44,483 nt of DNA from Candidatus Poseidonia sp. GTDB lineage: Archaea; Thermoplasmatota; Poseidoniia; Poseidoniales; Poseidoniaceae. The translations under genes and the position numbers were made by a program. The notes under the pieces are model-generated. The model had not been told where the DNA came from, did no database searches, and saw only the letters and a program-made list of their open reading frames with translations. Below are positions 200 to 11,545 of this stretch, piece after piece; position 1 is the stretch's first letter, and each line of letters begins with the position of its first letter. The stretch lies in contig JAURDW010000007.1 in the NCBI GenBank assembly GCA_030827745.1, forward strand, positions 1 to 44,483, written 5' to 3'.

Positions 200-771
200 T
201 GCTCAACCCAACGGCCTTTGTTCGGGAAGGCGACGCCGAGAGAATCAAGAGCAAACTCCGCTTCGACGTTAACATGGCAGGCGGCGGCACGGCACCGAAG
301 ATGAAGATGAACGAGGTGTTCATCCTCACCGGAACCACCCTGTTGTTGGGGGCCCTCTTCATGCACGCTTGGGTCTCGCCCGTGGTGCTGGAGGAAGGTG
401 CTGAAGCGTACACGAACGGCGCATCCATGATGAAAGGTGATGCCTTTAGCATCACGTTTGAAGTTGAGAACGAAACGACGGTGAGATTGGTTTTCTATGA
501 CGAAAACGAGAACATCATCAGCGCAGAATCCGTTGTTTTGGCGGCGGGCGACTCCGCTCAACGCACGCTCGAAGCAGAACAAGGCGGATACTACACGTAC
601 GAAGTGGACACCAAAGGCGTAGGAGCCACCTTAACCCTCGACATTGACCGAAAACTGATGATCGACCTTCTCCCTTTCCCTCTCGGAGCGTTTTTCCTCG
701 CCTTTGGGATTTACCAGCGAAAGGCATACGAGGAAACAGAGGAGCCTCTAGACGCCGAGTTAGATGTTTGA
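199..771 (+). CDS. Small membrane protein of unknown function, two predicted membrane helices
   Basis: This 190-residue protein starts at ATG 199, overlapping the upstream stop codon; a GTG just before it at 196 is the only nearby alternative. A basic N-terminal stretch is followed by a hydrophobic helix (about residues 38-57, starting NEVFILTGTTLLLGALF). Then comes a ~90-residue polar, beta-strand-like domain rich in Val, Glu and Thr, a second hydrophobic helix (about 153-172, LLPFPLGAFFLAFGIY) and a short acidic tail. The topology suggests both ends in the cytoplasm and the middle domain outside. No catalytic motif is visible. The end overlaps the 3' end of the convergent minus-strand gene by 12 bases. 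Confidence 0.6.
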   Translation: MLNPTAFVREGDAERIKSKLRFDVNMAGGGTAPKMKMNEVFILTGTTLLLGALFMHAWVSPVVLEEGAEAYTNGASMMKGDAFSITFEVENETTVRLVFYDENENIISAESVVLAAGDSAQRTLEAEQGGYYTYEVDTKGVGATLTLDIDRKLMIDLLPFPLGAFFLAFGIYQRKAYEETEEPLDAELDV

Positions 772-2229
772 CCAGGTCAGCAGGTTGCCGTCCTCAACGG
801 TAAGGCCGCCGTCCAACACGAGTTCCCCTTCCTGATTTAATCCCAAAATGCTCCGTTTTTTATTTCTATAGAGGATGGGGCCAAGGAGATATCCGCCTCG
901 CAACACCTCGGCCTCAACGACTTCACGCTCCACCTCGCAAGCTTGCTCACCGTGCTTCTCAAAAACCGAAGCCACAAGGGCATGAATTGCGTTGTGGAGC
1001 TCAAACAACGAGAGGTCAAGGCCCAACAAATCGAGGCCACCGAAGCCAACCCCCTTCGGAACGCTTGTGTTGAGTCCAAGGCCAACCACGACGGCCGTGT
1101 TGGCGCCCTTTGTTACACCTTCCATGAGCGTGCCGGCGGCCTTTCTCCACCCACCTTCGCCAGCCAACACGTAGAGGTCATTGGGCCATTTCATGCAAAC
1201 AGCCGAACTATGGTTCGGACCAGCCAGATACTCGAAGAGGCGGGTCATCGCCGCCCCTAAACGAACTTGGCCCCATGTTGGCTGGGGCAAGACCGGTCCT
1301 TCGCCTATTTTCCACGAGGCCATGAACGCGTTGTCAAGGGACGCCCAAGAACGCCCTCGTTGGCCCTTCCCCGCTGATTGACGGAGGGCCCGAAGACTGG
1401 TCCCAACGGGCGCATCGGTGGCGAGCAGCGTGCTATTTGTGGACGGAAGTTCTTCAACAACCTCCAAGGAGCGACCGGCATATGGCCGCCAGATTTGGAC
1501 GACAAACAGCCGTTCGCCATCCTCAAAATGCTCCGATTCGACCACCCTCGCTGCAAGCCCACGGGACCATGCCCGCTCACACGCCGTATCACCAATGTGG
1601 AGCGACGATATCACCACATAGGCGGTGCCTGTAGCATGAAGCAGGCTCCCGTTTGCGAGGATGTCAAGGAATCGGTCGTAGAGGCTTCTTCGGCCGGTGT
1701 CGATCATTCCCGCTTCTTCCATCGGCCCGAGATGGAGGGCCTCATCGCCGGGTGCCGGCAGATAGGGCATGTTCCAAACGACCGTGTCGTAGAGGCGATT
1801 GCCTCCCCATTGGGAAACATCGCCATCCTTGGACGGACCAGGGCCTCCTTCGAGCACTTCACCTCGGCCGCCCTCAGAGGCCAGCAGTCGCTTTGTCGCT
1901 GCGACTGCAAAGGGATTGATGTCGCATGCGGTCACCAAACAGCCGTTTCGAGCGGCAAAGAGCGTCAGGACCCCACTGCCACAACCGATTTCCAGCCATG
2001 TGCTGGAGGGCCGAGGAAACGTTCGTGCAACCACCTTTGCCAGCAAGTTGGTGTCCTCCCGCGGAGGGTACACGGTCGGCGGAACTGGAACCGTGAACTT
2101 GGAACCGAAGGGGTCGGTCCACACCACAACCTCGGCCGAGCGTGCCAGACCCTCGATTTCCCGGTCGGCATGACTGCGGTCAAACGGCGGGGCTGGCTTC
2201 ACATGCTTCACCGGTGGACGCTGCCTCAT
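760..2229 (-). CDS. Fusion of Mtq2/HemK2-like methyltransferase with biotin-protein ligase
   Basis: The protein is 489 residues from ATG 2229; an in-frame TTG at 2253 would add eight residues. Residues ~1-245 are a class I SAM methyltransferase: a YPPREDTNLL segment like the N-terminal signature of release-factor glutamine methyltransferases of the Mtq2/HemK2 type, motif I LEIGCGSGVLT, acidic loop DINP, and NMPY where the family normally has NPPY. Residues ~250-489 are a biotin-protein ligase: GKGQRGRSW (biotinyl-AMP loop), MKWPNDLYV, VVGLGLNTS, and a small C-terminal beta domain. The ligase part would biotinylate a carboxylase carrier domain; the methyltransferase part would modify the GGQ glutamine of aRF1. 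Both roles come from family knowledge. There is no N-terminal HTH, so it is not a BirA-type repressor. Each half looks complete and the frame is continuous, so this reads as a true fusion. Confidence 0.85.
   Translation of the reverse strand: MRQRPPVKHVKPAPPFDRSHADREIEGLARSAEVVVWTDPFGSKFTVPVPPTVYPPREDTNLLAKVVARTFPRPSSTWLEIGCGSGVLTLFAARNGCLVTACDINPFAVAATKRLLASEGGRGEVLEGGPGPSKDGDVSQWGGNRLYDTVVWNMPYLPAPGDEALHLGPMEEAGMIDTGRRSLYDRFLDILANGSLLHATGTAYVVISSLHIGDTACERAWSRGLAARVVESEHFEDGERLFVVQIWRPYAGRSLEVVEELPSTNSTLLATDAPVGTSLRALRQSAGKGQRGRSWASLDNAFMASWKIGEGPVLPQPTWGQVRLGAAMTRLFEYLAGPNHSSAVCMKWPNDLYVLAGEGGWRKAAGTLMEGVTKGANTAVVVGLGLNTSVPKGVGFGGLDLLGLDLSLFELHNAIHALVASVFEKHGEQACEVEREVVEAEVLRGGYLLGPILYRNKKRSILGLNQEGELVLDGGLTVEDGNLLTWSNI
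856..861 (+). terminator. Possible T-tract terminator for the 199-771 gene
   Basis: Six T residues, followed by ATTT, lie 85 bases past the stop of the plus-strand gene and inside the 3' part of the convergent gene. Archaeal termination often uses plain T-tracts. The short tract and coding location make this weak. Confidence 0.2.
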
Positions 2230-2272
2230 AGGCCTATGGATGCCCGACCGCAAGAAGAAGTGTTTTCTCCCC

Positions 2273-2524: not shown

Positions 2525-3175
2525 ATGGTCGTAAAAAGTGCAACGAAAAAGCGGTTGATGGAACTCGGCGTCTCCGAAGAGTACGCTCACAAACTCGCTA
2601 CCGACCGAAACATGACCGATATCAAGAACATGAGCCACGACGACGTGGCTTCCACCCTCGGCGTTTCCAAAGATGCTGAAGAATTCATCAACACCATGAA
2701 CATCATTGCCGAGCAAGGCTCCCGGCGTCGTGCTGCGAAAAAGAGCACCAAAATCACCATTCGAGCCAAGGCCATTGACGACTTGGACCGCCCTGAAATC
2801 ACGTCCCGATTCAACGCCCTCAACCACGTACTGGTCCCCCACCAGGAACTGGTCGGCGGTGCGAACATTTCCCCCGACGAGCAACTTTCCATCGAAATGG
2901 AGGAATTGGCCCCGTGGCAAATGATGCAACCTGACCCCGAAACGGGCGAGGAGCGCCTCGCAAAAGAACTGCTCCCCAAGATTTTGATCACCGACCCCGT
3001 GGTGCAGGTCATCAAAGAAACAGAAGAAGCAAAAGACGCTGCCGCCAGTTTGGCGGACCCCGATTACAAACCGCTCGCTGCAGGCTGGATTGCTGACCGC
3101 GTGCTGAAAGTCGTTCGCCAGTCACCATCCGCTGGACGAACGATCGCTTACCGACTCATCGTCGAGGGGAACTGA
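2525..3175 (+). CDS. rpoH: RNA polymerase subunit H (RPB5-like) with extra N-terminal domain
   Basis: This encodes the archaeal counterpart of the RPB5 assembly domain, part of the lower jaw of RNA polymerase. The recognisable H core is split over residues ~90-216: FNALNHVLVPHQELV, LPKILITDPVVQVI, and the C-terminal VLKVVRQSPSAGRTIAYRLIV (family pattern IIRKSPTAG...YRLV). At 216 residues it is far longer than the usual ~75-85. There is an N-terminal ~70-residue domain ([16 protein letters not shown]...), a ~35-residue acidic insertion after HQELV, and a ~20-residue insertion before the last strand. The N-terminal domain is clearly homologous to the N-terminus of RpoA'' in the same operon. The ATG is preceded by GGGAGGG and GGGGTG stretches. 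rpoB follows after 14 bases. Confidence 0.9.
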   Translation: MVVKSATKKRLMELGVSEEYAHKLATDRNMTDIKNMSHDDVASTLGVSKDAEEFINTMNIIAEQGSRRRAAKKSTKITIRAKAIDDLDRPEITSRFNALNHVLVPHQELVGGANISPDEQLSIEMEELAPWQMMQPDPETGEERLAKELLPKILITDPVVQVIKETEEAKDAAASLADPDYKPLAAGWIADRVLKVVRQSPSAGRTIAYRLIVEGN

Positions 3176-3189
3176 AGGAGGCCAACAAC

Positions 3190-6100
3190 ATGCAAGAAAT
3201 CATTCAATCATTTTTCAAAGAACGCAGCCTGGTCAACCACCAACTGGCATCCTACAACGATTGCATTCCAGCATCCGAAAACGCCATCTCTCGTATGGAG
3301 CGCATCATCCGCAACATCCGCGTTGGAACCGACGAAGACTTTGACGACGACGAGGGCGGTTACATCAAACTCGATGTACACGACCAGGACATCGTGATTC
3401 GCCTCAAAAATGTCAAACTTGGCCAACCTACCGTCAAAGAAGCAAACGGTGCGCTCAACCCATCCACACCCATGGAGTGCCGCTTGCGAAAGCTCACCTA
3501 CATGTCACCCGTGACCATCGATTTCACCATCAAGCGCAACGGCGTCCCATCGCCAACTGAAGCCGGCGTTCCCGTCGGCTCCATGCCCATCATGGTTCGC
3601 TCCGAACGGTGCAACCTCCACCCCAAGCACATCGCTGGAGACCGAGTTCTTGCCCCCACCACCTCCAACGAGGACAAGGGAACATGGCACGACCTCCTTC
3701 GTAAGAAGGGCGAAGACCCGCTCGACCCTGGTGGTTACTTCATCATCAACGGAACCGAACGCGTCCTTATCTCGATGGAGGACCTCGCTCCAAACCGGGT
3801 GACCGTGGAAATCAACAAGCGGTATGCGAAGCAAACCGAAGTGGCCAAGATTTTCTCTCAGAAAGACGGCATGCGGAAGCCGTTGACCGTCGAAAAGCGC
3901 CGTGACGGCATGCTCATGGTGAAGATCAGCACGGCCGGCACCACCGCCATCCCTGTCGTCCTCCTCATGCGAGCCCTTGGCGTAGAGAACGACCAACAAA
4001 TTTTCCAGGCCATCGCCGGAAACACCGATTCATTCAAGTTCATCGTGGCCAACATCAACGAAGTGAACGACAACGAAGAATACAAAGTGGTCACCACCGA
4101 GGAGAGCCATCAATGGCTTGAGAAGAAATTCGCTGCAGGGCAGCAAAAAGAGTACCGAGAAGCACGCGTGAATCAGTTGCTGGACCGTGAACTCTTGCCT
4201 CACTTGGGCGACCAAGTGGCTGACCGGGAAAAGAAGGCCATTTACCTTGGCCGAATCGTCCGACAGGTCCTCGAAATGGCTATCGAAGGTCGCGACCCCA
4301 ACGACAAAGACCACTACGCCAACAAGCGCGTTCGCCTCGCAGGCGACCTCATCGAAGACCTCTTCCGCGTCTCTGCTGGCCAACTCGCCCGGGATTTGAA
4401 GTACCAACTCGAGCGCCACCACAACCGCAAGCGCGAGCTCAAAATCACCTCATGCCTTCGCCCGGACGTCCTCACCTCGAAGATCATGCACGCCCTCGCC
4501 ACCGGGAACTGGGTTGGTGGACGCTCTGGCGTCAGCCAACTCTTGGACCGCACGACCTACCTCGCTGCGCTCTCCCACATGCGGCGTGTGACCTCGCCTC
4601 TGGTGCGAAGTCAACCTCACTTTGAGGCCCGTGACCTTCACCCGACCCAATGGGGCCGACTCTGCCCCAACGAGACCCCCGAAGGACAAAACTGCGGTCT
4701 GGTGAAGAACGCAGCCCAAATGATCGACATCTCTGAAGACATCAACGAGATCGAGATTCGGGAACGGCTCGACGAATTGGACGTGTACCAACCGGACGAC
4801 TGGACCGACGGTGACCGCGTCCACGTGAACGGCGACATCTACGGCATCCACAAGCGTGGGACCAAACTCGTTGACCACTTCAAATCATCACGCCGACGCG
4901 GCGTCATCCCCTCCGAGGTTTCGATCCGCCACGACGTGGACAACAAAGACATCTTCATCAACACCGACAAAGGCCGGATTCTCCGACCTTTGCTCATCCT
5001 CTACGACGGTGCACCGCGCTTGACGCACGACCATCTGGCCAAACTGACGAGCGGTGAAATGAACTTCCGTCAACTCGTCATTGAAGGCGTTGTGGAATGG
5101 GTCGATGCAGAGGAAGAAGAAGACCTCTACATCGCTCCCCGTCCGTTCGTTCTTCCAGAGACCGTCCCCGAAGGCGACTCAGCCGGCTTGGCCGGACGGG
5201 TCGTCAAGCACGAAGACGTGGAGTGGATGAACCTCGGCGAACCTCGGGCAACCGTGGCATCGTTGAAAGCCAAGGTGAGCATGCCCAACGGAACGGTTGA
5301 GACCACCACCTTTGATGTCCCGCTCCACTACACCGACGAGCACACGCACTGTGAAATCGACCCTCAGCTCGTGCTGGGTGTTTGCGCATCGCTCATCCCC
5401 TACCCCGAGCACAACTCAACGCCTCGCGTCACCGGTGGAACGGCCATGGTCAAGCAATCCCTGGGCCTGCCCAGCGCCAACTACCGAATGCGGCCGGACA
5501 CACGCGCTCACATCCTGCACTACCCACAGCGCTCCATCACCAAGACCCGAGCCATGGAAACCACCCACTTCGACGACCGCCCCGGCGGTCAGAACTTCAT
5601 CGTGGCCATCATGTCGCTTCACGGCTACAACATGCAAGATGCAGTCATCATGAACAAGGGATCCATTGACCGAGCGCTCGGCCGCTCAACGTTCAACCGG
5701 ACCTACAACGCTGAGCGACGCCGATTCCCTGGCGGACAAGTTGAGGAAATCGAAAAGCCCGGCACCTCCAAGCAGGAAATCAAGGGACTCAAAACCCCTG
5801 AAGCCTACTTGCACCTCGAGGGTGACGGCTTGCCTGTGCCCGAGTCCCACTTGACCGGAGGCGATGTTTTGGTCGGAAAGACCAGCCCGCCACGCTTCCT
5901 TGAGGAATCCTCCGGCGGCCACTTCTTAATGGCTCAAGAGCGACGTGAATCCTCGATGCTCGTTCGCCATGGCGAGAAGGGTTGGGTGGACAACGTCTAC
6001 GTCACCGAATCGTTGGATTCAGGCCGTTTGGTCCGCGTGATGGTGCGCAGCCACAAAGTCCCCGAGGTTGGCGACAAGTTCGCCTCCCGACACGGACAGA

Positions 6101-6803
6101 AAGGTGTCATTGGACGCTTGGTTGAACCCGAAGACATGCCGTTCACGGCCGATGGTGTCGTCCCCGACCTCATCATCAACCCCCACGCCATTCCTTCCCG
6201 AATGACCGTTGCCCACGTTCTCGAAATGATCGGCGGTAAGGTCGGCGCTATGGAGGGGCGACGGATTGACGGCACGGCCTTCCGAGGTGAAAAGGAATCC
6301 AGCCTTCGTGACGGATTGGTCCGAAACGGCCTTGCTCACACCGGACGGGAAACCATGATCAACGGTGAAACCGGTGAGATGTATCCCGCTGAAATCTTTG
6401 TAGGATGCATTTTCTACCAACGGCTGCACCACCTGGTAAGTTCCAAGATCCACGCCCGTTCCCGCGGTCGTGTGCAAATTTTGACCCGTCAACCCACTGA
6501 AGGGCGTGCTCGACAAGGTGGATTGCGGTTCGGTGAAATGGAACGTGACTGTCTGATTGCCCACGGGGCTTCGATGGTTATCAAAGACCGCTTGCTCGAC
6601 GAATCCGACGGCATTGACATGTACGTCTGCGCACAGTCCGGCCACATCGCTTGGTACGACCCCAAGCGAGGCACCTACGTTAGCCCCATCCACGGTGATG
6701 GTGCTGAAGTCTACAAGGTGCAGACTTCATATGCGTTCAAGCTGCTCTTGGACGAAATGAAGAGTTTAGGTGTGGCCATGCGTCTTGAACTGGAGGACCG
6801 AAA

Positions 6804-6807
<4 letters not shown>
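3190..6807 (+). CDS. rpoB: RNA polymerase subunit B (unsplit B'+B'')
   Basis: This is the second-largest catalytic subunit of the archaeal polymerase, 1205 residues and not split into B' and B''. Visible family blocks are RSERCNLHP...GGYFIINGTERVLI near the N-terminus, the HPTQWGRLCPNETPEGQNCGL segment, GQNFIVAIMSLHGYNMQDAVIMN, GDKFASRHGQKGVIG, and the C-terminal PTEGRARQGGLRFGEMERD anchor region. An oddity lies in the C-terminal clamp zinc ribbon, normally C-x2-C...C-x2-C: it reads C1147-A-Q-S1150-G and later S1165-P-I-H1168, so only one canonical cysteine remains. The rest of the ribbon fold sequence (HIAWYDPKRGTYV...YAFKLLLDEMKSLG) is conserved. The start has a GGAGG ribosome binding site. 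The stop overlaps the rpoA1 start as ATGA. Confidence 0.97.

Positions 6808-11545
<4,738 letters not shown>

Follow-up and report, generated by a model that had tools for sequence, protein, structure and literature searches.

Poseidoniales (Marine Group II) is an abundant marine archaeal order. In the window, that is, the whole stretch of 44,483 nucleotides of Candidatus Poseidonia DNA analysed here (contig C97 of a draft genome that is 81.5% complete), two subunits of the RNA polymerase, RpoH and A'', open with the same nine residues, MVVKSATKK. The locus raises the question of how two subunits of one enzyme came to share an N-terminal region, and of what this region does on the polymerase.

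Archaeal RpoH has been described without an N-terminal extension (PMC3906176), and the absence of a jaw from archaeal Rpo5 is given as a main difference from eukaryotic Rpb5 (PMC2675907). A 2026 survey of archaeal RNA polymerase small subunits treats variation in Rpo6 and Rpo8, with no mention of an RpoH domain in the passages located (PMC13257274); likewise, the passages located in a study on lineage-specific families name Poseidoniales-specific modules but not this one (PMC9258230). Searches of the open-access literature gave no earlier account of such a domain on either archaeal subunit.

The N-terminal domain shared by RpoH and A''

The genes lie on the + strand in the order tRNA-Lys(UUU) (2402-2477), rpoH (2525-3175; an ORF of 216 aa), rpoB (3190..6807), rpoA' (6804..9992) and rpoA'' (9992-11545; an ORF of 517 aa), followed by an L30e-type gene. 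The tRNA gene is located directly 5' of rpoH, and the stop codon of rpoA' and the start codon of rpoA'' overlap by one base (TGATG). In relatives, the upstream open frame of rpoH often runs through tRNA-like sequence. On the opposite strand of the window (760-2253, -), a methyltransferase domain and a biotin/lipoate protein ligase domain are fused in one 497-aa ORF.

Residues 1-67 of RpoH and A'' could be aligned without gaps. The initial annotation had stated that both proteins start with MVVKSATKK and that about half of the first 45 positions are identical; the actual numbers are 25 of the first 45 and 28 of the first 62. The local BLOSUM62 score of the pair was 136, compared with a mean of 24.9 (SD 4.7, maximum 57) for 5000 shuffles, and it was still 95, against 23 for the shuffles, when the nine-residue MVVKSATKK motif was left out. 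Among 231 N-terminus pairs of long ORFs in the window, used as a control, the next best score was 39. A search with the single RpoH sequence recovered the A'' copy at E = 1.3e-11, and a profile-profile comparison of RpoH copies with A'' copies gave an E value of 1e-24. The likeness of the two N-termini is real and far beyond chance, chance similarity being ruled out by the shuffles and the ORF-pair controls. Recent gene conversion between the genes is also unlikely, since 11 of the 28 identical residues are encoded by different codons.

In RpoH, the domain covers residues 1-62 (2525..2710, +), as delimited by the homology to A'' 1-67, the predicted helices and the conservation in both Poseidoniales families, so that the span 2525-2740 given in the initial annotation contains the domain (to about 2710) and the start of the basic linker. 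This linker (residues 63-94; 2711..2806, +) is poorly conserved in sequence and has a net charge of about +8 over residues 66-82. The remainder (2807..3175, +) is the RpoH/Rpb5 assembly-domain core, with a match to PF01191 at residues 144-212 (E 6e-8); its motif RFNxLNH starts at residue 93-95 in 105 of 107 sequences. At about 122 aa, the core exceeds the usual length of about 80; its conserved C-terminal part is both preceded and interrupted by insertions, and the PF01191 scores of RpoH are low across the whole order.

In A'', the corresponding domain covers residues 1-60 (9992..10171, +), as judged from the alignment with RpoH and the predicted structure, and, with homologues on the A'' of 14 other families, A'' is taken as the ancestral carrier. 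It is followed by a variable basic linker of low identity (residues 61-130; 10172..10381, +), with a net charge of about +6.6 over residues 66-105, and by the canonical core including the trigger-loop motif (10382..11545, +; TIGR02389 from residue 134). The solved archaeal Rpo1C (A'') chains, from Sulfolobales and Thermococcales, could be aligned only from about residue 141 of the A'' in the window.

We modelled the two regions separately with AF2, residues 1-75 of RpoH using RpoH sequences only and residues 1-75 of A'' using A'' sequences only. Helices were predicted at residues 6-13, 18-25, 30-34, 38-45 and 52-66 in RpoH (mean pLDDT 83.7) and at residues 6-13, 18-25, 30-34, 38-45 and 49-67 in A'' (pLDDT 78.9), and in both models they make up two helix-hairpin-helix (HhH) units and a connector helix. 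The same five-helix fold was predicted for both copies, against the possibility raised in the initial annotation that the folds might differ. In Foldseek searches, NusA (4mtn) and FANCM-FAAP24 were at the top of both lists, RadA/RAD51 appeared in both, and UvrC appeared in the RpoH list; TM scores were about 0.5-0.67, and the E values of 0.3-4 were weak, as is usual for 60 residues. The A'' model also matched E. coli NusA in a paused complex. A profile built from 24 A'' N-terminal domains from outside Poseidoniales (A4) matched topoisomerase V repeats (1.8e-18), DisA, ligase, XPF and NusA in the PDB, and Pfam HHH_5 was found in 8 of its 24 members (E 6.8e-6). On the Poseidoniales copies alone, no Pfam HHH match was significant (best E 0.044 among 31).

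The models with their Foldseek matches, together with the A4 matches to HhH proteins in the PDB, suggest that both N-terminal copies very probably have a degenerate (HhH)2-type fold, in agreement with the small, helical and HhH-like domain of the initial annotation. The second glycine of GhG in hairpin 1 was absent from all 25 RpoH and all 16 A'' copies, which counts against canonical DNA binding; neither copy has the hxGhG hairpin with which the canonical DNA-binding HhH contacts the phosphate backbone, and the copies are not classed with that type. Matches of the domain to Sigma70_r4, HTH and other Pfam families were scattered and below the cut-off, and Foldseek matches to SAM domains (SARM1, liprin) were rejected as a generic likeness of small helical bundles.

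The domain within Poseidoniales and its third carrier

Two Poseidoniales families (f1 and f2) were sampled. The RpoH frames were about 200-250 aa long in both (59 close relatives; genes that were detected and lay entirely within a contig), and the domain was seen in the sequences of RpoH and A'' from both. In a phylum-wide sample, the domain profile A1 had matches in 34 of 34 Poseidoniales genomes, usually exactly two per genome, in the RpoH and A'' frames; in the exceptional genomes, the RpoH or A'' gene was absent from the assembly or disrupted in it, or a further fragment or low-scoring match was seen. All Poseidoniales RpoH sequences that were read full-length had the domain. Since the pair is found in both families, both copies are older than the split of f1 and f2.

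The domain is not confined to the polymerase operon, because a third carrier exists. The initial annotation had proposed a search of the genome for a stand-alone third copy, and a third copy was found in a zinc-ribbon protein, whose profile had matches in all 34 Poseidoniales genomes (in two of them as contig-end fragments). In the window genome, this protein has 361 aa (L273:3135-4217:-, corresponding to G000:C28:20634-21716:-) and its N-terminus is MAKKDTYLALLRRGID. It was detected only with a broader profile (A6); the single RpoH sequence and A1 found two copies only. The protein consists of the N-terminal (HhH)2-like domain, an apparent coiled coil, a CxxC...CxxC zinc ribbon and a conserved C-terminal segment, and its size was 361-367 aa in the window genome and in eight further loci (L275-L282). 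A Pfam or NCBIfam family for it was not found. Outside Poseidoniales, nearly all matches of its profile were to the A'' N-terminal domain alone. In the nine loci that were read, from both families, the gene is located 3' of pus10-L21e-rpoF-DUF655-ksgA. The domain of the third carrier is an older-type copy, and the protein is a candidate for a Poseidoniales-specific, polymerase-associated factor.

The domain outside the order and the direction of copying

In the sister family f3, RpoH is bare, with open frames of 81-88 aa, and elsewhere in the phylum the RpoH open frames are mostly 80-150 aa, in which upstream sequence may be included. The longer RpoH frames of family f6 were rejected as carriers, having short basic extensions without the domain. 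On A'', an N-terminal domain of the type MAKKDTINALVKRGVSEEVANLLL was read in families f3, f5, f8, f17, f18, f19, f29, f30, f31, f32 and f36. Profile A4 placed the domain and A'' in a single open frame, with agreeing frame lengths, in 40 genomes from 14 families beyond Poseidoniales (E <= 7.1e-10), a count that includes the 24 sequences from which the profile was built. These results strongly support the A'' copy as old, since A'' opens with this domain in many lineages of Thermoplasmatota. The view of the initial annotation that neither subunit family normally has the domain thus holds for RpoH, which is bare outside the order, but not for A'', on which the domain occurs in 14 or more additional families of Thermoplasmatota. 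Its idea of a duplication within the operon that gave related modules on two subunits can be kept, except that the domain was not newly fused to both: the survey of when each copy appears, which it had proposed, indicates that the A'' copy is ancestral in the phylum and that the RpoH copy is specific to Poseidoniales.

The domains of other Thermoplasmatota resemble the Poseidoniales copies in their position at the A'' N-terminus, in their length (about 60 residues) and in being alignable from MAK-DT through helix 5, including both hairpins. They are found on A'' only, some lineages having extra canonical HHH_5 copies, whereas the Poseidoniales copies have a derived signature (VKSxTKK[RK]L / AHxLAxD) and occur also on RpoH. 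Profile A4 matched the RpoH N-terminus in the window genome (E 5.4e-5), and in profile-profile comparisons it matched the RpoH copies at E 6.6e-8 and the Poseidoniales A'' copies at E 1.3e-5.

The A'' N-termini of the phylum are diverse. Tandem canonical HhH repeats were found in f4, f15, f21, f23 and f29, with HHH_5 E values of 1e-22 to 1e-36 in the three families tested; f16 has Lys-rich tails; and among the A'' N-termini read, those of f13, f20 and f34 apparently have no such domain. Throughout the phylum, then, domains have repeatedly been gained at the A'' N-terminus, which makes this end of the A'/A'' split a hot spot. Another kind of domain, beta-looking, was seen at the A'' N-terminus of f24, f27 and f35 (L113, L130, L131, L154 and L158), and two A'' sequences of f3 (L143 and L144) have an extension of 400-450 aa with an HhH-like domain at its start.

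We reconstructed a tree of RpoH, A'' and third-carrier copies (70 rows, 68 columns). RpoH and Poseidoniales A'' grouped in a single clade (100/100) that excluded the remaining A'' and the third carrier, and Poseidoniales A'' was itself a clade (100/100). The tree leaves the root between RpoH and Poseidoniales A'' unplaced, and the direction of copying therefore rests on the distribution. Because the sister family has a bare RpoH and a domain-bearing A'', the simplest history is one A''-to-RpoH duplication in the Poseidoniales stem, and a common origin of both copies with copying in this direction is highly likely. It is extremely unlikely that the domain was first on RpoH and then moved to A'', or that it originated independently on both: the RpoH copies do score closer than the Poseidoniales A'' copies to the A'' domain of other lineages, and the unplaced root would allow it, but the bare RpoH and domain-bearing A'' of the sister family already disfavour these histories, and parsimony requires one transfer from A'' to RpoH and more for the alternatives. 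With the A''-to-RpoH direction, a copy of the segment encoding the A'' N-domain would have been joined to the rpoH 5' end within the operon, in the Poseidoniales stem. The whole order breaks the rule of a bare RpoH, and it does so with a domain that very probably came from a second polymerase subunit, providing a dated case of a multisubunit polymerase gaining accessory modules.

Placement on the polymerase and possible roles

The mean pairwise identity of RpoH within the order was 63% in the domain, 65% in the core and 50% in the linker, and that of A'' was 72%, 76% and 38%, respectively. Helix 1 (VKSxTKK[RK]L) was the most conserved part of the RpoH domain, and the net charge of residues 1-11 was +4 in both Poseidoniales copies versus +1 in other A''. 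The linkers of RpoH and A'' were strongly basic. The net charge of residues 1-60 was about -1 to -2, which counts against the reading preferred below. The identity values strongly support core-like purifying selection on both copies since the duplication. Conservation of the domain like that of the core, while the linker drifts, speaks for a function and not a passive fusion, and, being kept as faithfully as the enzyme core, the domain pair is probably a working part of the Poseidoniales polymerase.

We infer the placement of the domains on the enzyme from the subunit topology. The RpoH copy would most likely sit where the downstream DNA enters, in the groove that the clamp head forms with the assembly domain of Rpo5. 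It could reach this groove on about 30 basic residues, and its basic first helix and basic linker may hold the downstream DNA or a nearby partner. The A'' copy would be a second arm, hanging from the A'/A'' split on a longer tether. Both copies would be accessory modules on flexible basic tethers. As the hairpin glycines are lost, docking onto protein is the more likely use of the hairpins, much like that of the NusA acidic repeats and the bacterial alpha-CTD; the target would be the other copy, the third carrier or a factor, and the basic residues would add nonspecific nucleic-acid contact. The account as a whole, that is, an ancestral A'' domain copied to RpoH with both copies serving as tethered accessory modules, seems reasonably likely to us, and an accessory role of the RpoH copy on the downstream-DNA side is proposed tentatively.

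Near the downstream DNA, the groove that separates subunit 5 from the clamp head is occupied by the Rpb5 jaw in eukaryotes and by Rpo13 in Sulfolobales (PMC2675907), and the RpoH domain may be a testable parallel to both. Like the domain, the Rpb5 jaw extends this subunit at its N-terminus, and it lies towards the downstream DNA (PMC2675907, PMC3906176); unlike the domain, which is all-helical, it is eukaryote-specific and has about 130 residues, and neither the domain profile nor full RpoH beyond its C-terminal core gave a match to it. Rpo13 is similarly a small helical module with a basic tail that docks by Rpo5 near the downstream DNA (PMC2675907), but it is a separate subunit with a helix-turn-helix, and its chain was not matched by the domain profile at E<=10. 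Both models have their best structural match in the C-terminal acidic-repeat (HhH)2 of bacterial NusA (4mtn), which is likewise attached to the transcription machinery; it differs in belonging to a separate factor, whereas the Poseidoniales domains are fused to core subunits, and the Poseidoniales copies could not be assigned to it at the sequence level. The bacterial alpha-CTD is also an HhH-type helical domain on a flexible RNA polymerase linker, with weak profile similarity to the arrays on other A'' (PF03118 E 2.8e-6), but it is located on another subunit at the opposite terminus and has no direct match to the Poseidoniales copies. As the hairpin glycines are lost, protein docking, whether like that of NusA or the alpha-CTD or by HhH-HhH pairing that may include the third carrier, is nearly as likely as a downstream-DNA module.

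If pairing were the main role, the (HhH)2 surface of each copy would bind that of the other copy or of the third carrier. This would clamp A'' to RpoH or bring the zinc-ribbon protein to the polymerase, and DNA contact would be secondary. Such a model draws on the (HhH)2 pairing of XPF-ERCC1 and FANCM-FAAP24; the latter heterodimer also ranks near the top of both Foldseek lists. The loss of the DNA-contact glycines from the hairpins and the occurrence of three related domains in every sampled Poseidoniales genome, with the third gene near rpoF in the loci read, also agree with it. However, the proposed HhH-HhH contact is an analogy, the top Foldseek match is NusA, which is not a dimer, and most of the phylum has the domain on A'' with no partner on RpoH. 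Pairing as the main role is rather unlikely in our view.

Alternatively, the domains may be docking arms that occupy no set position on the core and bind transcription or translation factors (e.g. Spt4/5, a ribosomal protein or a repressor). The match of both models to NusA, and of the A'' model to E. coli NusA in the paused complex, is consistent with such arms, as are the long, unconserved linkers and the weakly alpha-CTD-like HhH arrays on other A'' (PF03118 E 2.8e-6). On the other hand, there is no known partner, and the basic tethers and basic helix 1 point at least partly to nucleic acid, so that we regard this alternative as unlikely. A neutral or assembly-only fusion of the RpoH copy, with no function of its own, is very unlikely: other archaeal polymerases function without an RpoH extension (PMC3906176), but the RpoH domain is as conserved as the core in two families while the linker drifts, and it is present on all Poseidoniales RpoH read full-length.

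We prefer the reading of tethered accessory modules. The third carrier is a candidate new polymerase-associated protein. A three-part HhH system, with one domain on the downstream jaw (RpoH), one at the A'/A'' split and a third on the lineage-specific zinc-ribbon/coiled-coil protein encoded beside the rpoF cluster, which would dock to the polymerase through HhH-HhH contacts, is conceivable but distinctly improbable; if it were true, the third carrier would be a new archaeal general transcription factor, and the system would be the archaeal counterpart of the Rpb5 jaw and also of alpha-CTD/NusA docking.

Separately, the window genome encodes a 156-aa protein with HHH_5 (E 2.6e-8) and a Lys/Ala-rich tail of linker-histone-like composition (contig C42 of G000, L274:1617-2087:+). 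It may be a chromatin protein, and similar frames of 160-200 aa were matched in several relatives.
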